This document shows, piece by piece, positions 2,388 through 7,565 of a stretch of 8,541 bases of DNA. Origin of the DNA: a bacterium. GTDB taxonomy: Bacteria; Lindowbacteria; 2-12-FULL-62-27. The stretch is taken from assembly GCA_016202645.1 (NCBI GenBank), contig JACQOF010000005.1, forward strand, positions 1 to 8,541. Direction: 5' to 3'. The notes beneath the pieces were generated by a model. The model was not told where the DNA came from. It made no database searches and saw nothing but the letters and a program-made list of their open reading frames with translations. Both the position numbers and the translations under genes were made by a program. Position 1 is the first letter of the stretch, and each line of letters begins with the position of its first letter.

Positions 2388-4247
2388 ATGGTTCTGATGG
2401 TTGTGATTGTTCTGACGGTTCTCTTTCTTTCGTACGCCAACGGCGCGAACGACAATTTCAAGGGTGTCGCGACGCTGTACGGCAGTCGACAGCTTTCGTA
2501 CAAGCCGGCGATTGGACTCGCGGCCGCGACGACATTCGCCGGCTCGCTCTGCGCGCTGTTTTTGTCCCAGGGATTGATCCGGGCATTTTCCGGCAAGGGT
2601 CTTGTGCCGGATGCGGTTGTGGCAAATCCGGCATTCATGATTTCCGTGGGTCTCGGCGCGGCGCTGACCGTTTTTGCCGCCGCCCGGATGGGAATGCCGA
2701 TCTCGACCACACACGCTCTCGTCGGCGGGCTGGCCGGCGCCGGGGTTGTCCTTTCGCCGTCAGGCGTGAAAATAGCGCCGCTGGCCGGAGTTTTTCTTGT
2801 GCCGCTCCTGGTCAGCCCGATCATCGCCTCCGTGCTTTGCGCCGCCGCCTATCCCGTTCTTTCTTTTCTGAGAAAGAAGGCCGGCCTCACGGAATCGACC
2901 TGCGTGTGCGTCGGTGAGAAAGCGTTGCCTGTCCAAATTTCGCCGTCCGGTGAAATGACGGCCGCGCTGAATGGAATGACCATCACCGTTGACGATGCAT
3001 CCGTTTGCCGAAGGCAATACGTCGGGGATGTGCTGGGACTTTCGGTCGTTCGACTGGCCGCCGCCGTCCATTTGTTCCTCGGCGGCGCGGTGTCGTTTGC
3101 GCGCGGATTAAATGACACGCCCAAAATTTGCGCCCTCCTTCTGGTCGCAACGGCTGTCTCTCCCGGATACGGTTTTTTTGCCGTCGCGCTCGCGATGGCT
3201 CTCGGCGGCATCCTTGGCGCCCGGCGGATCGCCCACACCATGAGCGACCGCATCACAGATATGAATCTCGGCCAAGGAATGACGGCGGCCGCGACGACGG
3301 CGGCGATGGTCATTCTAGCCTCCCGGTGGGGAATGCCGGTATCGACGACGCACGTTTCGTGTGGCTCGCTCTTTGGTCTTGGCGCGGTGACCCGCAAGGC
3401 CCGCTGGGGCATGATCCGAACCATCGTTGGCGCGTGGATCTCGACGCTTCCCGTCGCCGCCGCGCTCGCGGCCGGCGCCGCGCTCATCCTGACGGCCGCT
3501 CCGCCGGCGCTCGCCGCCGAAAATGTTGCTCCAAGAATCGTCGATGCTTCGGCGTGGACGCTTCTTCTTCAAAAATACGTTTCGCAAAACGGCCTTGTCG
3601 CTTATTCCTCATGGAAGAAGAACGATACGGACGTTCAAAAACTCGAAGCCTATTTGCAGGCGATGTCCCGCGTGCAGGCGGAAACTTTATCCCGGCCGGA
3701 CGCCATCGCCCATTACCTGAATCTGTACAACGCCTCGATGGTCAAGCTGGTGCTGGATCATCATCCGGTTTCGAGCGTGAAAAAGATCGGGGGCTTTGGC
3801 GGCCCATGGAAAATGAAGTTCATTCAAGCGGAAGATCGGCTCATATCCCTGGACGACATCGAGCACGGAACCCTTCGGAAAAAATACAAAGAACCGCGCA
3901 TCCATTTCGCGCTGGTGTGCGCGTCGACCAGTTGCCCGCCGATTCGGGCGGAAGCCTACGAGGGGGACCGGATCGACACCCAGCTTGCGGATCAGGAGCG
4001 GACCTTTATGACCGACCCCGGCAGAAATCTCTGGCGGGTGGAAATGTCCGGTGTTTTTTCAAAAGAGGAGCGGCTTGCACTGGGGCTGTCCTCCATATTT
4101 AAGTGGTTCGGCGAGGATTTCGGAGGCGAAGCGGGCGTGGTTCGGCGCGTCAGGCCATTTCTGGATCCCGCCGCCCGGGCGCTTCTGGATCAATCCCGAT
4201 ACGACGTGGATTATCTTGACTACGATTGGTCATTAAACGGGAAATAG
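2388..4247 (+). CDS. PiT-family phosphate (arsenate) permease fused to a C-terminal DUF547 domain
   Basis: A 619-residue fusion. Residues 1 to about 370 are a PiT-type inorganic phosphate permease. It shows the duplicated signatures of the family: 'NGANDNFKG' at 18-26 and its partner 'GLND' at 240-243, and 'GMPISTTH' at 102-109 and its partner 'GMPVSTTH' at 315-322, set among many hydrophobic helices. The loop between the two halves (about 163-215) holds Cys172, Cys174 and Cys207. PiT carriers move phosphate with a cation, and E. coli Pit also takes up arsenate. Residues about 385-610 match DUF547, including 'LYNASMVKLVLDHHP' and the conserved 'CASTSCPP' (Cys511, Cys516). DUF547 has no settled function. 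The junction 'PPALAAE' (372-378) follows the last hydrophobic helix and looks like a signal-peptidase I site, so DUF547 probably lies outside the membrane and might be released; this is inference. The frame is continuous with no sign of a frameshift. The stop is 10 nt before the radical SAM gene, so they are probably one operon. Confidence 0.9.
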   Translation: MVLMVVIVLTVLFLSYANGANDNFKGVATLYGSRQLSYKPAIGLAAATTFAGSLCALFLSQGLIRAFSGKGLVPDAVVANPAFMISVGLGAALTVFAAARMGMPISTTHALVGGLAGAGVVLSPSGVKIAPLAGVFLVPLLVSPIIASVLCAAAYPVLSFLRKKAGLTESTCVCVGEKALPVQISPSGEMTAALNGMTITVDDASVCRRQYVGDVLGLSVVRLAAAVHLFLGGAVSFARGLNDTPKICALLLVATAVSPGYGFFAVALAMALGGILGARRIAHTMSDRITDMNLGQGMTAAATTAAMVILASRWGMPVSTTHVSCGSLFGLGAVTRKARWGMIRTIVGAWISTLPVAAALAAGAALILTAAPPALAAENVAPRIVDASAWTLLLQKYVSQNGLVAYSSWKKNDTDVQKLEAYLQAMSRVQAETLSRPDAIAHYLNLYNASMVKLVLDHHPVSSVKKIGGFGGPWKMKFIQAEDRLISLDDIEHGTLRKKYKEPRIHFALVCASTSCPPIRAEAYEGDRIDTQLADQERTFMTDPGRNLWRVEMSGVFSKEERLALGLSSIFKWFGEDFGGEAGVVRRVRPFLDPAARALLDQSRYDVDYLDYDWSLNGK

Positions 4248-4257: not shown

Positions 4258-6840
4258 ATGGACGAAAAAACTGTTTTTCACGCTTTGCCATACATTGAGG
4301 AAAAAGCCGACGGCACGGTATTTCTGCTTGCGCCCTCCGTTCCGAACTGGATCGCCACGGACGATCGCGGCGCGAAGATCCTCTCGTTCGTGGACGGCCG
4401 CCGCACCATCGGCCGGATTGCCGATCGCTACTCTCGGGAACTGAATGTGGACCGGACGCGCGGATGGCTCCACGTCGATACATTTCTCAAAGACGCGTTT
4501 CGCCATCAATTCGTCTCCCCGAGTCCCGCCGCAGAGCAGGACTACAAAGGCCGCGCCGCATATCTTCAGCCAACGGCGCTTCGCGAACTCTGGATTCACA
4601 CGAACAATTCCTGCAACCTGGCGTGTTCGCACTGCCTCGTACGCTCGGGCCCGAACGGCGACGCCGGGCCTGAAACGCAAAAGATCCTGAAATGGATCGA
4701 CGAAGGCCTGGCGCTTGGCGTCGAGCGGTTCTTTTTCACCGGCGGCGAGCCGATGGCGCGAAAAGATTTCTGGGTTTTGGTCGAATACGTCACAGCCAGG
4801 GCTGAACTTGCCGTATTGACCAACGGAACGCTCATTTCAGGCGAACGGCTGGAACGTCTCTGCCAGTGCGATCCGAATCTGCTGAAACTCCAGATCAGCC
4901 TCGACGGTTCGACCCCGGAAATCAACGATTCCATCCGGGGCGCGGGCAGTTTCCGCCGGGCGGTGGAGGGAATCCGAAATGCCGTGTCGGCCGGGTTCCT
5001 TCCGACTCTGACAACGGTTGTCACACGCCAAAACGTGGGGGACTTGCCCGGCATCGTTCGGCTCGCGGCCGGCTTGCGCCTTCAGGCCGTTCACTTCATG
5101 TGGATGCACCTCAAAGGCCGGGCGGCGGAAAACAATCAGATGGCGGCCGGCATTCCGGAAATGATTGAAGCGGTGGAAGAAGCCCGCCGAACCGCCGCCG
5201 AACTTGGCATCTACGTGGACAACATCGAGGCCGCAAAAACGCGGCTCGGCGGGCCCGCCGGACTCAAAACGGATCTTTCCAACGCCGGTTGGGAAAGTCT
5301 CTGCATCTATTCGGACGGAGGAGTCTATCCGTCCGCCGCCACGGTCCAGGTGGCCGGCCTTCGGCTGGGCGACGCGAATCGATCCTCGCTGAAAGAAATT
5401 TGGCTGACATCCCCCGTCGCTCGAAAAATGCGAGAGGCGAGCGTCGAAAACATGGATCAATGCACAGGCTGTCGGTACAAGTTCCTCTGCGGCGGAGGCG
5501 ATATCGAGCACCGATATTTTTTTGGTAAAAAAATCGTGAGTGCCCATGCCGTCATGCCCGCGGAAGCGGGCATCCAGTCTGGTTCGTCCGGGGAGGCTTT
5601 GGATTCCCGCTTTCGCGGGAATGACGGGCATGATGCGGTACCCCGGTGGAAGGACGTCTTCCATGGCGATGATCCCTACTGCGATCTCTACCAGAGTCTC
5701 ATCGGAACGGCGATGCGCGAGATGGCGGAGCGCGGTGATCCACGGAACGGCCGCAAAACCGGGTTTGACGCGCCCGTGGTTTTTGCAGGCATGGGCGATG
5801 TGCGAACGCATGATTTTGGCTTGAATGGTTCAACCTCGAACCCCCTTGTGGCGCTCAAACATTCCAATTGCGTGCTGGCGTTTGATCTCGACACGTATCG
5901 TCGGCCCGTTCGGGAGTTTTACGGCGAAGCCGCCGAAAAACCGCAGGCCGATCTTTGCTGTCCGATCAAATACAACTCTGAATTTCTCGATCACATCCCG
6001 AAGGAGGCCATTGAAGTCTTTTACGGATGCGGAGGGCCCATGCAGGAGGCGGACATCCGCGAGGGCCAGACGATCGTGGATCTCGGCTCCGGCGGAGGCA
6101 TCGACTGTTTCATCGCCGCCAAGCGGGTCGGCCCGACCGGCCATGTGATCGGCGTCGACATGACGGACCGGATGCTGAATCTGGCCGGACAGAATCGCGT
6201 GAAGGTGGCCAAAAATCTCGGCTACGACAACGTCGAATTCCGGAAGGGGTTTCTCGAATCGGTCCCGGTCGACGACAAATCCGCCGATCTGGTGACCTCA
6301 AACTGCGTCGTCAATCTGTCTCCGGACAAGCGCCGCGTCTTCCGCGAAATTTGGCGAATCCTCAAGGACACCGGTACGGTTCTGATCTCCGACATCGTGA
6401 CCGAGCACGAACTGCCGCTGCATCTCGCGGTCAACAGCCGGCTGGTGGGCGAGTGCATCGGCCAGGCCCTGACCGAGGAACAGTTTCTCGCCTACCTTGA
6501 ACAGGCCGGATTCTACGGCATCACGATCACCAAGAAGTTTTTCTGGAAGGACGTCGAGGGCCATCCCGTCTATTCCATCACCGTCCGCGGGCAGAAATTC
6601 GAAAAGACGAATGGGTGCGTTTTTATCGGCCAGAAGGCGGTCTATCACGGTCCCTTCAAATCCGCGACGGACGAGGAGGGGCATCTTTTCCCCAGAAACG
6701 AACCGGTTGAAATCTGCACCGACACCGCCGCCAAACTTTCCGCGCCGCCCTACAACGCCTTTTTCACGGTCGCGTCGCCGAGCGGCAAGGTCGAGAGCGC
6801 CTGTTGCCCGGCGCCGGCCGACGGTAAATCCTGTTGCTGA
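4258..6840 (+). CDS. PqqD-like / radical SAM-SPASM / ArsM-like methyltransferase fusion
   Basis: An 860-residue multidomain enzyme. Residues about 15-90 resemble a PqqD-type winged-helix domain. The radical SAM core (about 110-330) has the [4Fe-4S]-binding C119-x3-C123-x2-C126 and 'GGEP' at 162-165. A SPASM region follows with Cys349, Cys402, Cys405, Cys411 and Cys475, typical ligands for auxiliary clusters. From about 545 the protein matches arsenite S-adenosylmethyltransferase: 'VREFYG' leading to 'LCCP' (Cys567/568), 'YGCGGP' (Cys591), the SAM-binding 'VDLGSGGGIDC' (607-617), 'SNCVVNLSPDK' (Cys683) and 'ECIGQAL' (Cys733). These line up with the four ArsM cysteines (44, 72, 174 and 224 in the Cyanidioschyzon enzyme), and the last two have the same spacing of 50. 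The C-terminus ends in two Cys-Cys pairs (849-850, 859-860). The likely role is methylation of arsenite, or a similar metalloid, coupled to a radical step; the radical substrate is unknown. Residues about 428-461 come from an inserted palindromic repeat. The start is set by the ribosome binding site at 4245-4252. Confidence 0.9.
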   Translation: MDEKTVFHALPYIEEKADGTVFLLAPSVPNWIATDDRGAKILSFVDGRRTIGRIADRYSRELNVDRTRGWLHVDTFLKDAFRHQFVSPSPAAEQDYKGRAAYLQPTALRELWIHTNNSCNLACSHCLVRSGPNGDAGPETQKILKWIDEGLALGVERFFFTGGEPMARKDFWVLVEYVTARAELAVLTNGTLISGERLERLCQCDPNLLKLQISLDGSTPEINDSIRGAGSFRRAVEGIRNAVSAGFLPTLTTVVTRQNVGDLPGIVRLAAGLRLQAVHFMWMHLKGRAAENNQMAAGIPEMIEAVEEARRTAAELGIYVDNIEAAKTRLGGPAGLKTDLSNAGWESLCIYSDGGVYPSAATVQVAGLRLGDANRSSLKEIWLTSPVARKMREASVENMDQCTGCRYKFLCGGGDIEHRYFFGKKIVSAHAVMPAEAGIQSGSSGEALDSRFRGNDGHDAVPRWKDVFHGDDPYCDLYQSLIGTAMREMAERGDPRNGRKTGFDAPVVFAGMGDVRTHDFGLNGSTSNPLVALKHSNCVLAFDLDTYRRPVREFYGEAAEKPQADLCCPIKYNSEFLDHIPKEAIEVFYGCGGPMQEADIREGQTIVDLGSGGGIDCFIAAKRVGPTGHVIGVDMTDRMLNLAGQNRVKVAKNLGYDNVEFRKGFLESVPVDDKSADLVTSNCVVNLSPDKRRVFREIWRILKDTGTVLISDIVTEHELPLHLAVNSRLVGECIGQALTEEQFLAYLEQAGFYGITITKKFFWKDVEGHPVYSITVRGQKFEKTNGCVFIGQKAVYHGPFKSATDEEGHLFPRNEPVEICTDTAAKLSAPPYNAFFTVASPSGKVESACCPAPADGKSCC
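5546..5631. repeat. Palindromic dispersed-type repeat inserted in frame in the SPASM coding region
   Basis: About 86 bp with near-matching inverted ends (ATGCCGTCATGCCCGC at the left, and the complement of ATGCCCGTCATTCCCGC at the right). It contains two perfect 8-bp hairpins: 5554-5561/5566-5573 with a GGAA loop, and 5603-5610/5615-5622 with a TTTC loop. Read on the + strand it encodes 'VMPAEAGIQ' and 'DSRFRGNDG'. Read on the - strand it encodes the near-identical 'VIPAKAGIQ' and 'DARFRGHDG', as expected from the symmetry. Such peptides are a known translation artefact of abundant intergenic palindromic repeats in many Gram-negative genomes. Here the repeat sits inside a gene, between SPASM Cys411 and Cys475, and keeps the frame open. 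Exact borders and any target-site duplication cannot be set from one copy. Confidence 0.85.
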
Positions 6841-6851
6841 ACGGAGTGGCT

Positions 6852-7565
6852 GTGACTTCTGAAAAACGAACCGGCTGGTTGCGCATGTTGTTCGTTCTGT
6901 CGGCCGTCGTGATTGCGCTCATCGTGGGCCGACATTGGCTCGATCGCGCGGCGCTCGCGGCTGTTCTATCCCACGTGCAGTCTCTCGGAAATTGGGGGGT
7001 TGCGATTCTCTCCGTCCTCTACGTTTTTGCCTGTATTCTCTTTTTACCGGGATCGATCCTGACTCTGGCGGCCGGATTTCTCTTCGGCCTTGTCAAAGGA
7101 TACGCGGCGGTGGCAGTGGGCAGTGTCCTTGGCGCCTCGGCCGCGTTCTGGATCGGCCGGACGGCCGGCCGCGATTGGGTGAGACGCAAGGTGGAGGGTA
7201 GCGCGAAATTTGCGGCGATCGATCGCGCGGTGGCGCGGAGTGGATTCAAGATTGTGCTCCTGACGCGTCTTTCGCCGGCGTTTCCGTTCAATCTCCTGAA
7301 TTTCGCATACGGCGTTACCGGTGTGACGTTCCGCGACTATTTCTGGGCGTCGGCGCTGGGCATGGCGCCGGGATCGGTCATGTACGTCTACATCGGATCG
7401 GCGATGAAAAATCTCGCCGATGTTTTCAGCGGCTCGACCGCGCCGACGGCGCTCCAGAACGGGATGTACGCTTTGGGCCTCGCCGCGACCATTGCCGTAA
7501 CGGTTGTGGTGACCAAAATCGCCAGGCGGGCCTTGAACGAGGCCGCCGGATTGACGGCAAACTAA
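6852..7565 (+). CDS. TVP38/TMEM64 (VTT/DedA-like) membrane protein
   Basis: A 237-residue integral membrane protein from GTG 6852. I chose this start because GGAG at 6843-6846 is 5 nt upstream; in-frame TTG 6834 and GTG 6846 are alternatives, and TTG 6834 would overlap the previous gene. Hydrophobic segments occur at about 10-27, 50-80, 84-103, 160-185 and 210-228. The VTT signatures are present: 'FLPGSILTLAAGFLFG' at 64-79, a Gly-rich helix ending 'FWIGRTAGR' (99-107), and 'TRLSPAFPFNLLNFAYG' from 138. Members of the VTT/DedA superfamily are membrane proteins linked to lipid scrambling or transport and membrane homeostasis; the substrate of this clade is not established. It lies 11 nt after the radical SAM-ArsM fusion and 2 nt before the oxidoreductase. 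Such proteins often sit next to, or fused with, mercuric-reductase-like enzymes (family knowledge, from memory), so a joint redox or membrane role is likely but unproven. Confidence 0.9.
   Translation: MTSEKRTGWLRMLFVLSAVVIALIVGRHWLDRAALAAVLSHVQSLGNWGVAILSVLYVFACILFLPGSILTLAAGFLFGLVKGYAAVAVGSVLGASAAFWIGRTAGRDWVRRKVEGSAKFAAIDRAVARSGFKIVLLTRLSPAFPFNLLNFAYGVTGVTFRDYFWASALGMAPGSVMYVYIGSAMKNLADVFSGSTAPTALQNGMYALGLAATIAVTVVVTKIARRALNEAAGLTAN

Follow-up and report, generated by a model that had tools for sequence, protein, structure and literature searches.

The locus raises the question of what is made by a protein that carries a radical SAM enzyme in its N-terminal half and an arsenite methyltransferase of the ArsM type in its C-terminal half. 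ArsM methylates As(III) and, acting alone, is a known detoxification enzyme. Two radical SAM enzymes are associated with further arsenic chemistry: ArsS adenosylates arsenic en route to arsenosugars, as reported in PMC12159101 with reference to Cheng et al. 2021, and ArsL transfers a 3-amino-3-carboxypropyl group to arsenic in arsinothricin synthesis (PMC8552651). In the literature that we covered, only ArsS and ArsL are described as radical SAM enzymes making C–As bonds. A search of the open literature, with most subscription papers outside it, returned no description of the fusion architecture.

One reading frame encodes both enzymes

The window (the whole 8,541-nucleotide stretch analysed here) contains an open reading frame of 860 codons, which begins with ATG and has no internal stop codons (Table 1). 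The preliminary description, made from the letters, had read it as a single-chain fusion, and the intact frame, an 89% identical orthologue and twelve more fusions elsewhere bear this out. Domain searches, which that description had proposed, returned Radical_SAM, SPASM and methyltransferase domains from Pfam and the arsenite methyltransferase family PRK11873 from NCBIfam, and the CxxxCxxC motif that it had noted is formed by C119, C123 and C126. The AlphaFold model of the fusion (pLDDT 87.6, pTM 0.86) supports the whole domain layout.

Table 1. Features of the window, with positions, strand and supporting evidence
Feature	Position	Strand	Evidence
Pit-type transporter fused to DUF547	2388..4247	+	PF01384, PF04784; ends 10 bp before fusion
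Single-chain PqqD/RRE-radical SAM-SPASM-ArsM fusion, 860 aa	4258..6840	+	Intact frame, Pfam/NCBIfam, predicted structure, orthologue (L029)
PqqD/RRE-like N-terminal domain, aa 1-90	4258..4527	+	PF05402, E 0.0027; alignment to CteB (5wgg)
Radical SAM core, aa 106-300	4573..5157	+	PF04055, E 3e-23
CX3CX2C motif C119, C123, C126 (CNLACSHC)	4612..4635	+	Invariant in 12/12 fusions
Degenerate SPASM domain, aa 343-476	5284..5685	+	PF13186, E 3e-8 and 3e-9
REP-like palindromic repeat inside SPASM domain, read in frame	5526..5636	+	Genome copies; model disorder
Linker C538	5869..5871	+	Invariant in twelve aligned fusions
ArsM-type arsenite methyltransferase half (aa 546-860), including its C-terminal domain and CC...CC tail	5893..6837	+	PRK11873, PDB 4fr0/6cx6, tree
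C591, aligned with CmArsM Cys72 (YGCG)	6028..6030	+	Alignment; conserved
C683, aligned with CmArsM Cys174 (SNCV)	6304..6306	+	Alignment; conserved
C733, aligned with CmArsM Cys224 (GEC)	6454..6456	+	Alignment; conserved
VTT-domain membrane protein	6834..7565	+	PF09335; start overlaps fusion stop
FAD-containing oxidoreductase (PRK06370 type), truncated by contig end	7568..8541	+	NCBIfam

Model residues 10-493 align to the RRE-radical SAM-SPASM enzyme CteB (Z 32), and the N-terminal half shares domain order and predicted fold with CteB and other peptide maturases of this build, but the identity is 18%, the AuxI ligands are absent and no precursor peptide was found beside the gene. The PqqD-like domain proposed at the N-terminus scores 18.4 bits with PF05402, below the Pfam cut-off of 23.4, yet the CteB alignment starts at residue 10 of the model and thus spans this region of the predicted fold. 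The expected SPASM cysteines were found in part: C402, C405, C411 and C475 are of the AuxII type and are the only ones kept, S359 and D415 occupy usual cysteine positions (D415 within CX2CX5CX3C), and the canonical first motif is missing, leaving the full auxiliary-cluster set incomplete. The absence of AuxI ligands was judged against the motif of the anaerobic sulfatase-maturating enzyme. Cysteines of the AuxII type are also lost in 4 of the 12 aligned fusions (L089, L091, L096 and L097).

Model residues 563-845 align to ArsM (PDB 4fr0/6cx6) with a Z-score of 29 and 35% identity. This half has a class I methyltransferase fold with the SAM-binding Gly motif noted earlier, ArsM structures being the closest and also the best sequence matches among solved structures (E 4e-36 to 2e-30). 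The ArsM-type cysteines lie exactly at the residues that the preliminary description had named, 567/568, 591, 683 and 733, with C567/C568 as the fourth conserved cysteine (Cys44 of CmArsM). The fusion shares fold, arsenic-binding cysteines, C-terminal domain and CC tail with ArsM, the closest known forms being CmArsM (4fr0) and the ArsS-linked subgroup. Unlike ArsM itself, this half sits behind a radical SAM half and scores below the curated NCBIfam cut-offs, with 231 bits (E 1e-68) against 263 for PRK11873 and 157 bits against 400 for AsSugarArsM; these cut-offs apply to whole proteins and were set on stand-alone ones. We file the region as an ArsM-type half and do not assign it to either of these models.

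The linker (5650-5890) carries C538 in an HSNC-like motif that none of the inspected stand-alone ArsM proteins showed. A second linker cysteine is found in 10 of the 12 fusions and is missing from both Lindowbacteria. The linker cysteines are a possible hand-over site for arsenic.

In the window copy, a REP-like repeat (GTCATKCCCGCG..CGCGGGAATGAC) interrupts the SPASM domain; it has about 40 other genomic copies, 76-86% identical, and the orthologue lacks it. Apart from the C-terminal tail, the repeat (residues 426-461, pLDDT <50) is the only long low-confidence stretch of the model. An inverted-repeat scan of 5450-5750 with default seeds found nothing; the repeat is nonetheless plain from its genome copies. 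It is a natural example of a repeat that has become protein sequence within a conserved gene.

The fusion recurs in at least six phyla

The orthologue (L029:6001-8505) comes from Candidatus Lindowbacteria bacterium RIFCSPLOWO2_12_FULL_62_27, where the contig that carries it is 508 kb long. When 386 diverse genomes were scanned with the radical SAM half as query, ten further full-length fusions of 828-1029 residues were found in eight families outside that of the window, and phylum scans added two, giving 14 fusions in nine GTDB-style families. Since the four phylum lists are disjoint, lack the window genome and omit four more fusion-bearing families, at least six phyla are represented. Two genes wrongly joined during assembly or annotation might be suspected, for the window is an entire 8.5-kb contig of a draft genome and has a repeat inside the gene. 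The thirteen independent fused copies, one of them on the 508-kb contig, rule out such an artefact, whose probability we regard as negligible, and the repeat lies within the SPASM domain, not at the domain junction.

The preliminary description had proposed collecting proteins of the same architecture and examining both active sites, including the four ArsM cysteines. In the twelve aligned fusions, the CX3CX2C motif, C591, C683, C733 and C538 are invariant, and C567/C568 is kept in ten, the losses being in L096 and L097. These two (L096:9318-12368 and L097:12-3101) form a divergent subgroup that lacks the first ArsM cysteine and the SPASM cysteines and is extended at the C-terminus by a domain akin to the metal-binding protein MbdU. 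Between the window fusion and its orthologue, dN/dS was 0.05-0.08 for the radical SAM, SPASM and ArsM parts, which indicates purifying selection on both halves; the PqqD-like part gave 0.15 and the linker 0.20. Few parts of the protein are as poorly conserved as the RRE-like domain, whose identity to the window copy is 15-43% in fusions from outside the Lindowbacteria.

This pattern bears on a reading in which the ArsM half serves only detoxification, making volatile or exported methylarsenicals, and the role of the radical SAM half is redox, accessory or unrelated. The eroding auxiliary-cluster cysteines and the known role of ArsM acting alone would fit it. However, the invariant CX3CX2C motif (12/12), the strong purifying selection on the radical SAM half, the non-canonical type of the ArsM half and the lack of partner genes at canonical ArsM loci (see below) make it improbable.

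The halves have different phylogenetic affinities

One branch of the ArsM tree (support 93/73) has all twelve fused halves on the same side, and another (support 100/99) separates them, along with the ArsM proteins of ArsS clusters, from canonical ArsM. By this tree the fused half groups with ArsS-linked ArsM, as its sister, and not with canonical ArsM. The methyltransferase half does not fall outside the ArsM clade, in line with its preliminary assignment.

The radical SAM half is not an ArsS derivative; this origin is ruled out by its score with the ArsS profile TIGR04167 (48 bits, cut-off 300) and by a quick radical SAM tree, in which ArsS forms one separate, distant clade (branch support 100). 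Against a profile of their own, the fused radical SAM halves score 398-497 bits, the next stand-alone proteins at most 192 and ArsS proteins at most 68. In the same tree the fused halves form a single branch with weak support (39), inside which L072 and L081 may fall, and closest to them are short unfused proteins with kinship to the Rv1681 family (NF049973), which makes theirs a SPASM/Rv1681-like lineage distant from ArsS. These closest unfused relatives differ from the fusion in having neither the RRE nor the ArsM part, and those tested score below the NF049973 cut-off. In genomes that lack ArsS, several adjoin ArsM, TIGR04282 or DUF547, which links this radical SAM lineage to arsenic independently of the fusion.

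Some stand-alone radical SAM proteins, each about 290-310 residues long, are encoded beside ArsM where ArsS is absent from the genome (L163:7019-7879, L170:6519-7445 and L171:2021-2947) and are possibly an unfused alternative to ArsS. An association between short stand-alone radical SAM proteins and TIGR04283 is based on a set picked by eye and serves as a lead only. In two ArsM-like genes, L030 (G032:C268) and L031 (G032:C262), the matched frame crosses a TGA codon, so that the products are possibly selenoproteins; the gene of L030 adjoins a radical SAM gene and TIGR04282.

The operon resembles arsenosugar clusters

The operon in the window comprises the Pit-DUF547, fusion, VTT and FAD oxidoreductase genes, with gaps of 10, -7 and 2 bases. 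The window Pit is 48% identical to that of an ArsS cluster (L033), VTT homologues occur in both ArsS and fusion clusters, and the FAD oxidoreductase of the orthologous locus is 56% identical to that of ArsS cluster L035. One ArsS cluster (G050) reads ArsM-ArsS-DUF547-VTT-FAD oxidoreductase, another (G054) has the AhpD-like TIGR04169, ArsS, a Pit 48% identical to that of the window, and ArsM, and the fusion locus of G390 has all six partners (Pit, TIGR04282, TIGR04283, DUF547, FAD oxidoreductase and VTT) around the fusion. Both TIGR04282 and TIGR04283 are named in NCBIfam as glycosyltransferases of arsenosugar biosynthesis. When at least one gene of a partner set (Pit, DUF547, VTT, FAD oxidoreductase, TIGR04282, TIGR04283 or AhpD) was required, partners were found at 9 of 14 fusion loci and 16 of 20 ArsS loci, but at none of the 8 loci with canonical ArsM. 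The other five fusions have no clear partner gene nearby, and TIGR04283 is located elsewhere in their genomes. In gene content, the window operon matches ArsM/ArsS arsenosugar clusters.

The fusion and ArsS belong to the same radical SAM superfamily and share partner genes and an ArsM subgroup; they differ in that the fusion is of another radical SAM lineage, has RRE and SPASM domains and is covalently joined to ArsM. ArsL and ArsM of arsinothricin synthesis likewise pair a radical SAM enzyme with an ArsM on a single arsenical, but they are encoded by separate genes in an arsQML context and use a non-canonical 3-amino-3-carboxypropyl chemistry (PMC8552651).

Pit and DUF547, one frame in the window (2388-4247), are separate genes in other clusters and so represent a second gene fusion in the operon; the orthologous locus has DUF547 only, without Pit. 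At 582-1208, the window also encodes a protein with many E-H-P repeats and a putative signal peptide. This possible metal binder is conserved in the Lindowbacteria relative and was not seen in the other clusters.

The neighbourhood also bears on a peptide route, in which the RRE-radical SAM-SPASM half would make an arsenic RiPP by modifying a ribosomal peptide that serves as carrier or binder of the arsenical. The preliminary description had offered a peptide or thiol carrier as its second option, and the predicted fold, like that of the sactipeptide maturase CteB (Z 32), is consistent with the peptide route. This route was not borne out: five within-family pairs were compared, and none showed a credible conserved small ORF next to the fusion gene, although a precursor may be encoded elsewhere in the genome. 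Small-ORF matches between the window and its orthologue were at least 3.5 kb upstream, and those between L093 and L185 were low-complexity stretches and one end of an adjacent gene. With the RRE-like domain poorly conserved (15-43%) and the SPASM cysteines often lost, we consider this route very improbable.

The fusion and ArsS occur in different genomes

ArsS was found above the cut-off in 65 of the 386 genomes (67 with a looser limit) and in none of the 12 fusion genomes of this set, an absence that is not striking in itself. TIGR04283 was more informative: among ArsS-free genomes, 11 of the 12 that have the fusion carry it, against 32 of the 307 that lack the fusion (Fisher p 8.5e-10), and the genomes with TIGR04283 comprise 11 with the fusion, 50 with ArsS, 32 with neither and 0 with both (p 9e-5), counts over genomes that share ancestry, and so are not phylogenetically independent, and that differ in completeness. 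In this set the distributions of ArsS and the fusion do not overlap. In one phylum the fusion is present in family f194 and ArsS in members of its sister family f92, and in another the fusion is present in f176 and ArsS in members of the sister family f53. A related genome (G002) has no fusion, no TIGR04283 and no ArsS.

A model for organoarsenical synthesis by one protein

The preliminary description had suggested that a methylated arsenical passes to a radical step that makes an As–C bond. This part of its proposal has gained indirect support from several sides: the affinity of the ArsM half to ArsS-linked ArsM, the operon partners, the absence of ArsS and the presence of TIGR04283. With an intact ArsM site, an intact radical SAM site and the place that ArsS holds in its clusters, methylation followed by radical alkylation is the most economical explanation. 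We therefore lean towards a bifunctional enzyme of organoarsenical synthesis that would replace separate ArsM and ArsS, methylating As(III) and then using radical chemistry to form a further C–As bond, in all likelihood through adenosylation. A role in an arsenic pathway is well supported; the methylation and radical activities, the radical product and the channelling between the halves we infer.

In this model, the ArsM half would bind As(III) via C591, C683 and C733 and methylate it with SAM, probably to mono- or dimethylarsenite by analogy with ArsM. A [4Fe-4S] cluster on C119, C123 and C126 would cleave a second SAM, and the radical SAM half would join a group derived from SAM to the methylarsenical in its trivalent form. 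The likeliest group is 5'-deoxyadenosyl, which would give dimethylarsinoyl-adenosine, the precursor of oxo-arsenosugars. The TIGR04282/TIGR04283 glycosyltransferases, DUF547, VTT and the FAD oxidoreductase may act in downstream steps or transport.

Since the N-terminal half is distinct from ArsS (48 bits with TIGR04167, distant in the tree), the chemistry need not be adenosylation. The enzyme could hold the same pathway position and add a 3-amino-3-carboxypropyl group, as ArsL does, or act on an existing arsenosugar or arsenolipid. The lineage is neither ArsS nor, by its best NCBIfam matches, an assigned arsenic enzyme, and ArsL demonstrates that radical SAM enzymes make other C–As bonds (PMC8552651). 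On the other hand, the partner genes of the fusion match ArsS arsenosugar clusters, and TIGR04283 in fusion genomes mirrors its presence in ArsS genomes; we regard other chemistry as unlikely, though worth keeping in mind. The RRE-SPASM build of the N-terminal half, which is that of peptide-modifying enzymes, counts against the adenosylation model as well.

As the radical SAM half fails ArsS membership, we file the fusion as a variant organoarsenic-synthesis enzyme and not as ArsS. It may well be, and we are evenly divided on this, a third radical SAM lineage independently recruited for C–As bonds beside ArsS and ArsL, joined in one chain with the methyltransferase and converting inorganic arsenite and SAM to an adenosylated or similarly alkylated methylarsenical. 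If so, the producers of arsenosugar-type organoarsenicals would extend to poorly studied, mostly uncultivated bacteria of at least six phyla. The fusion would then offer a one-protein system for studying the delivery of a methylated arsenical to a radical active site, and would be a marker of arsenosugar potential in genomes without ArsS.
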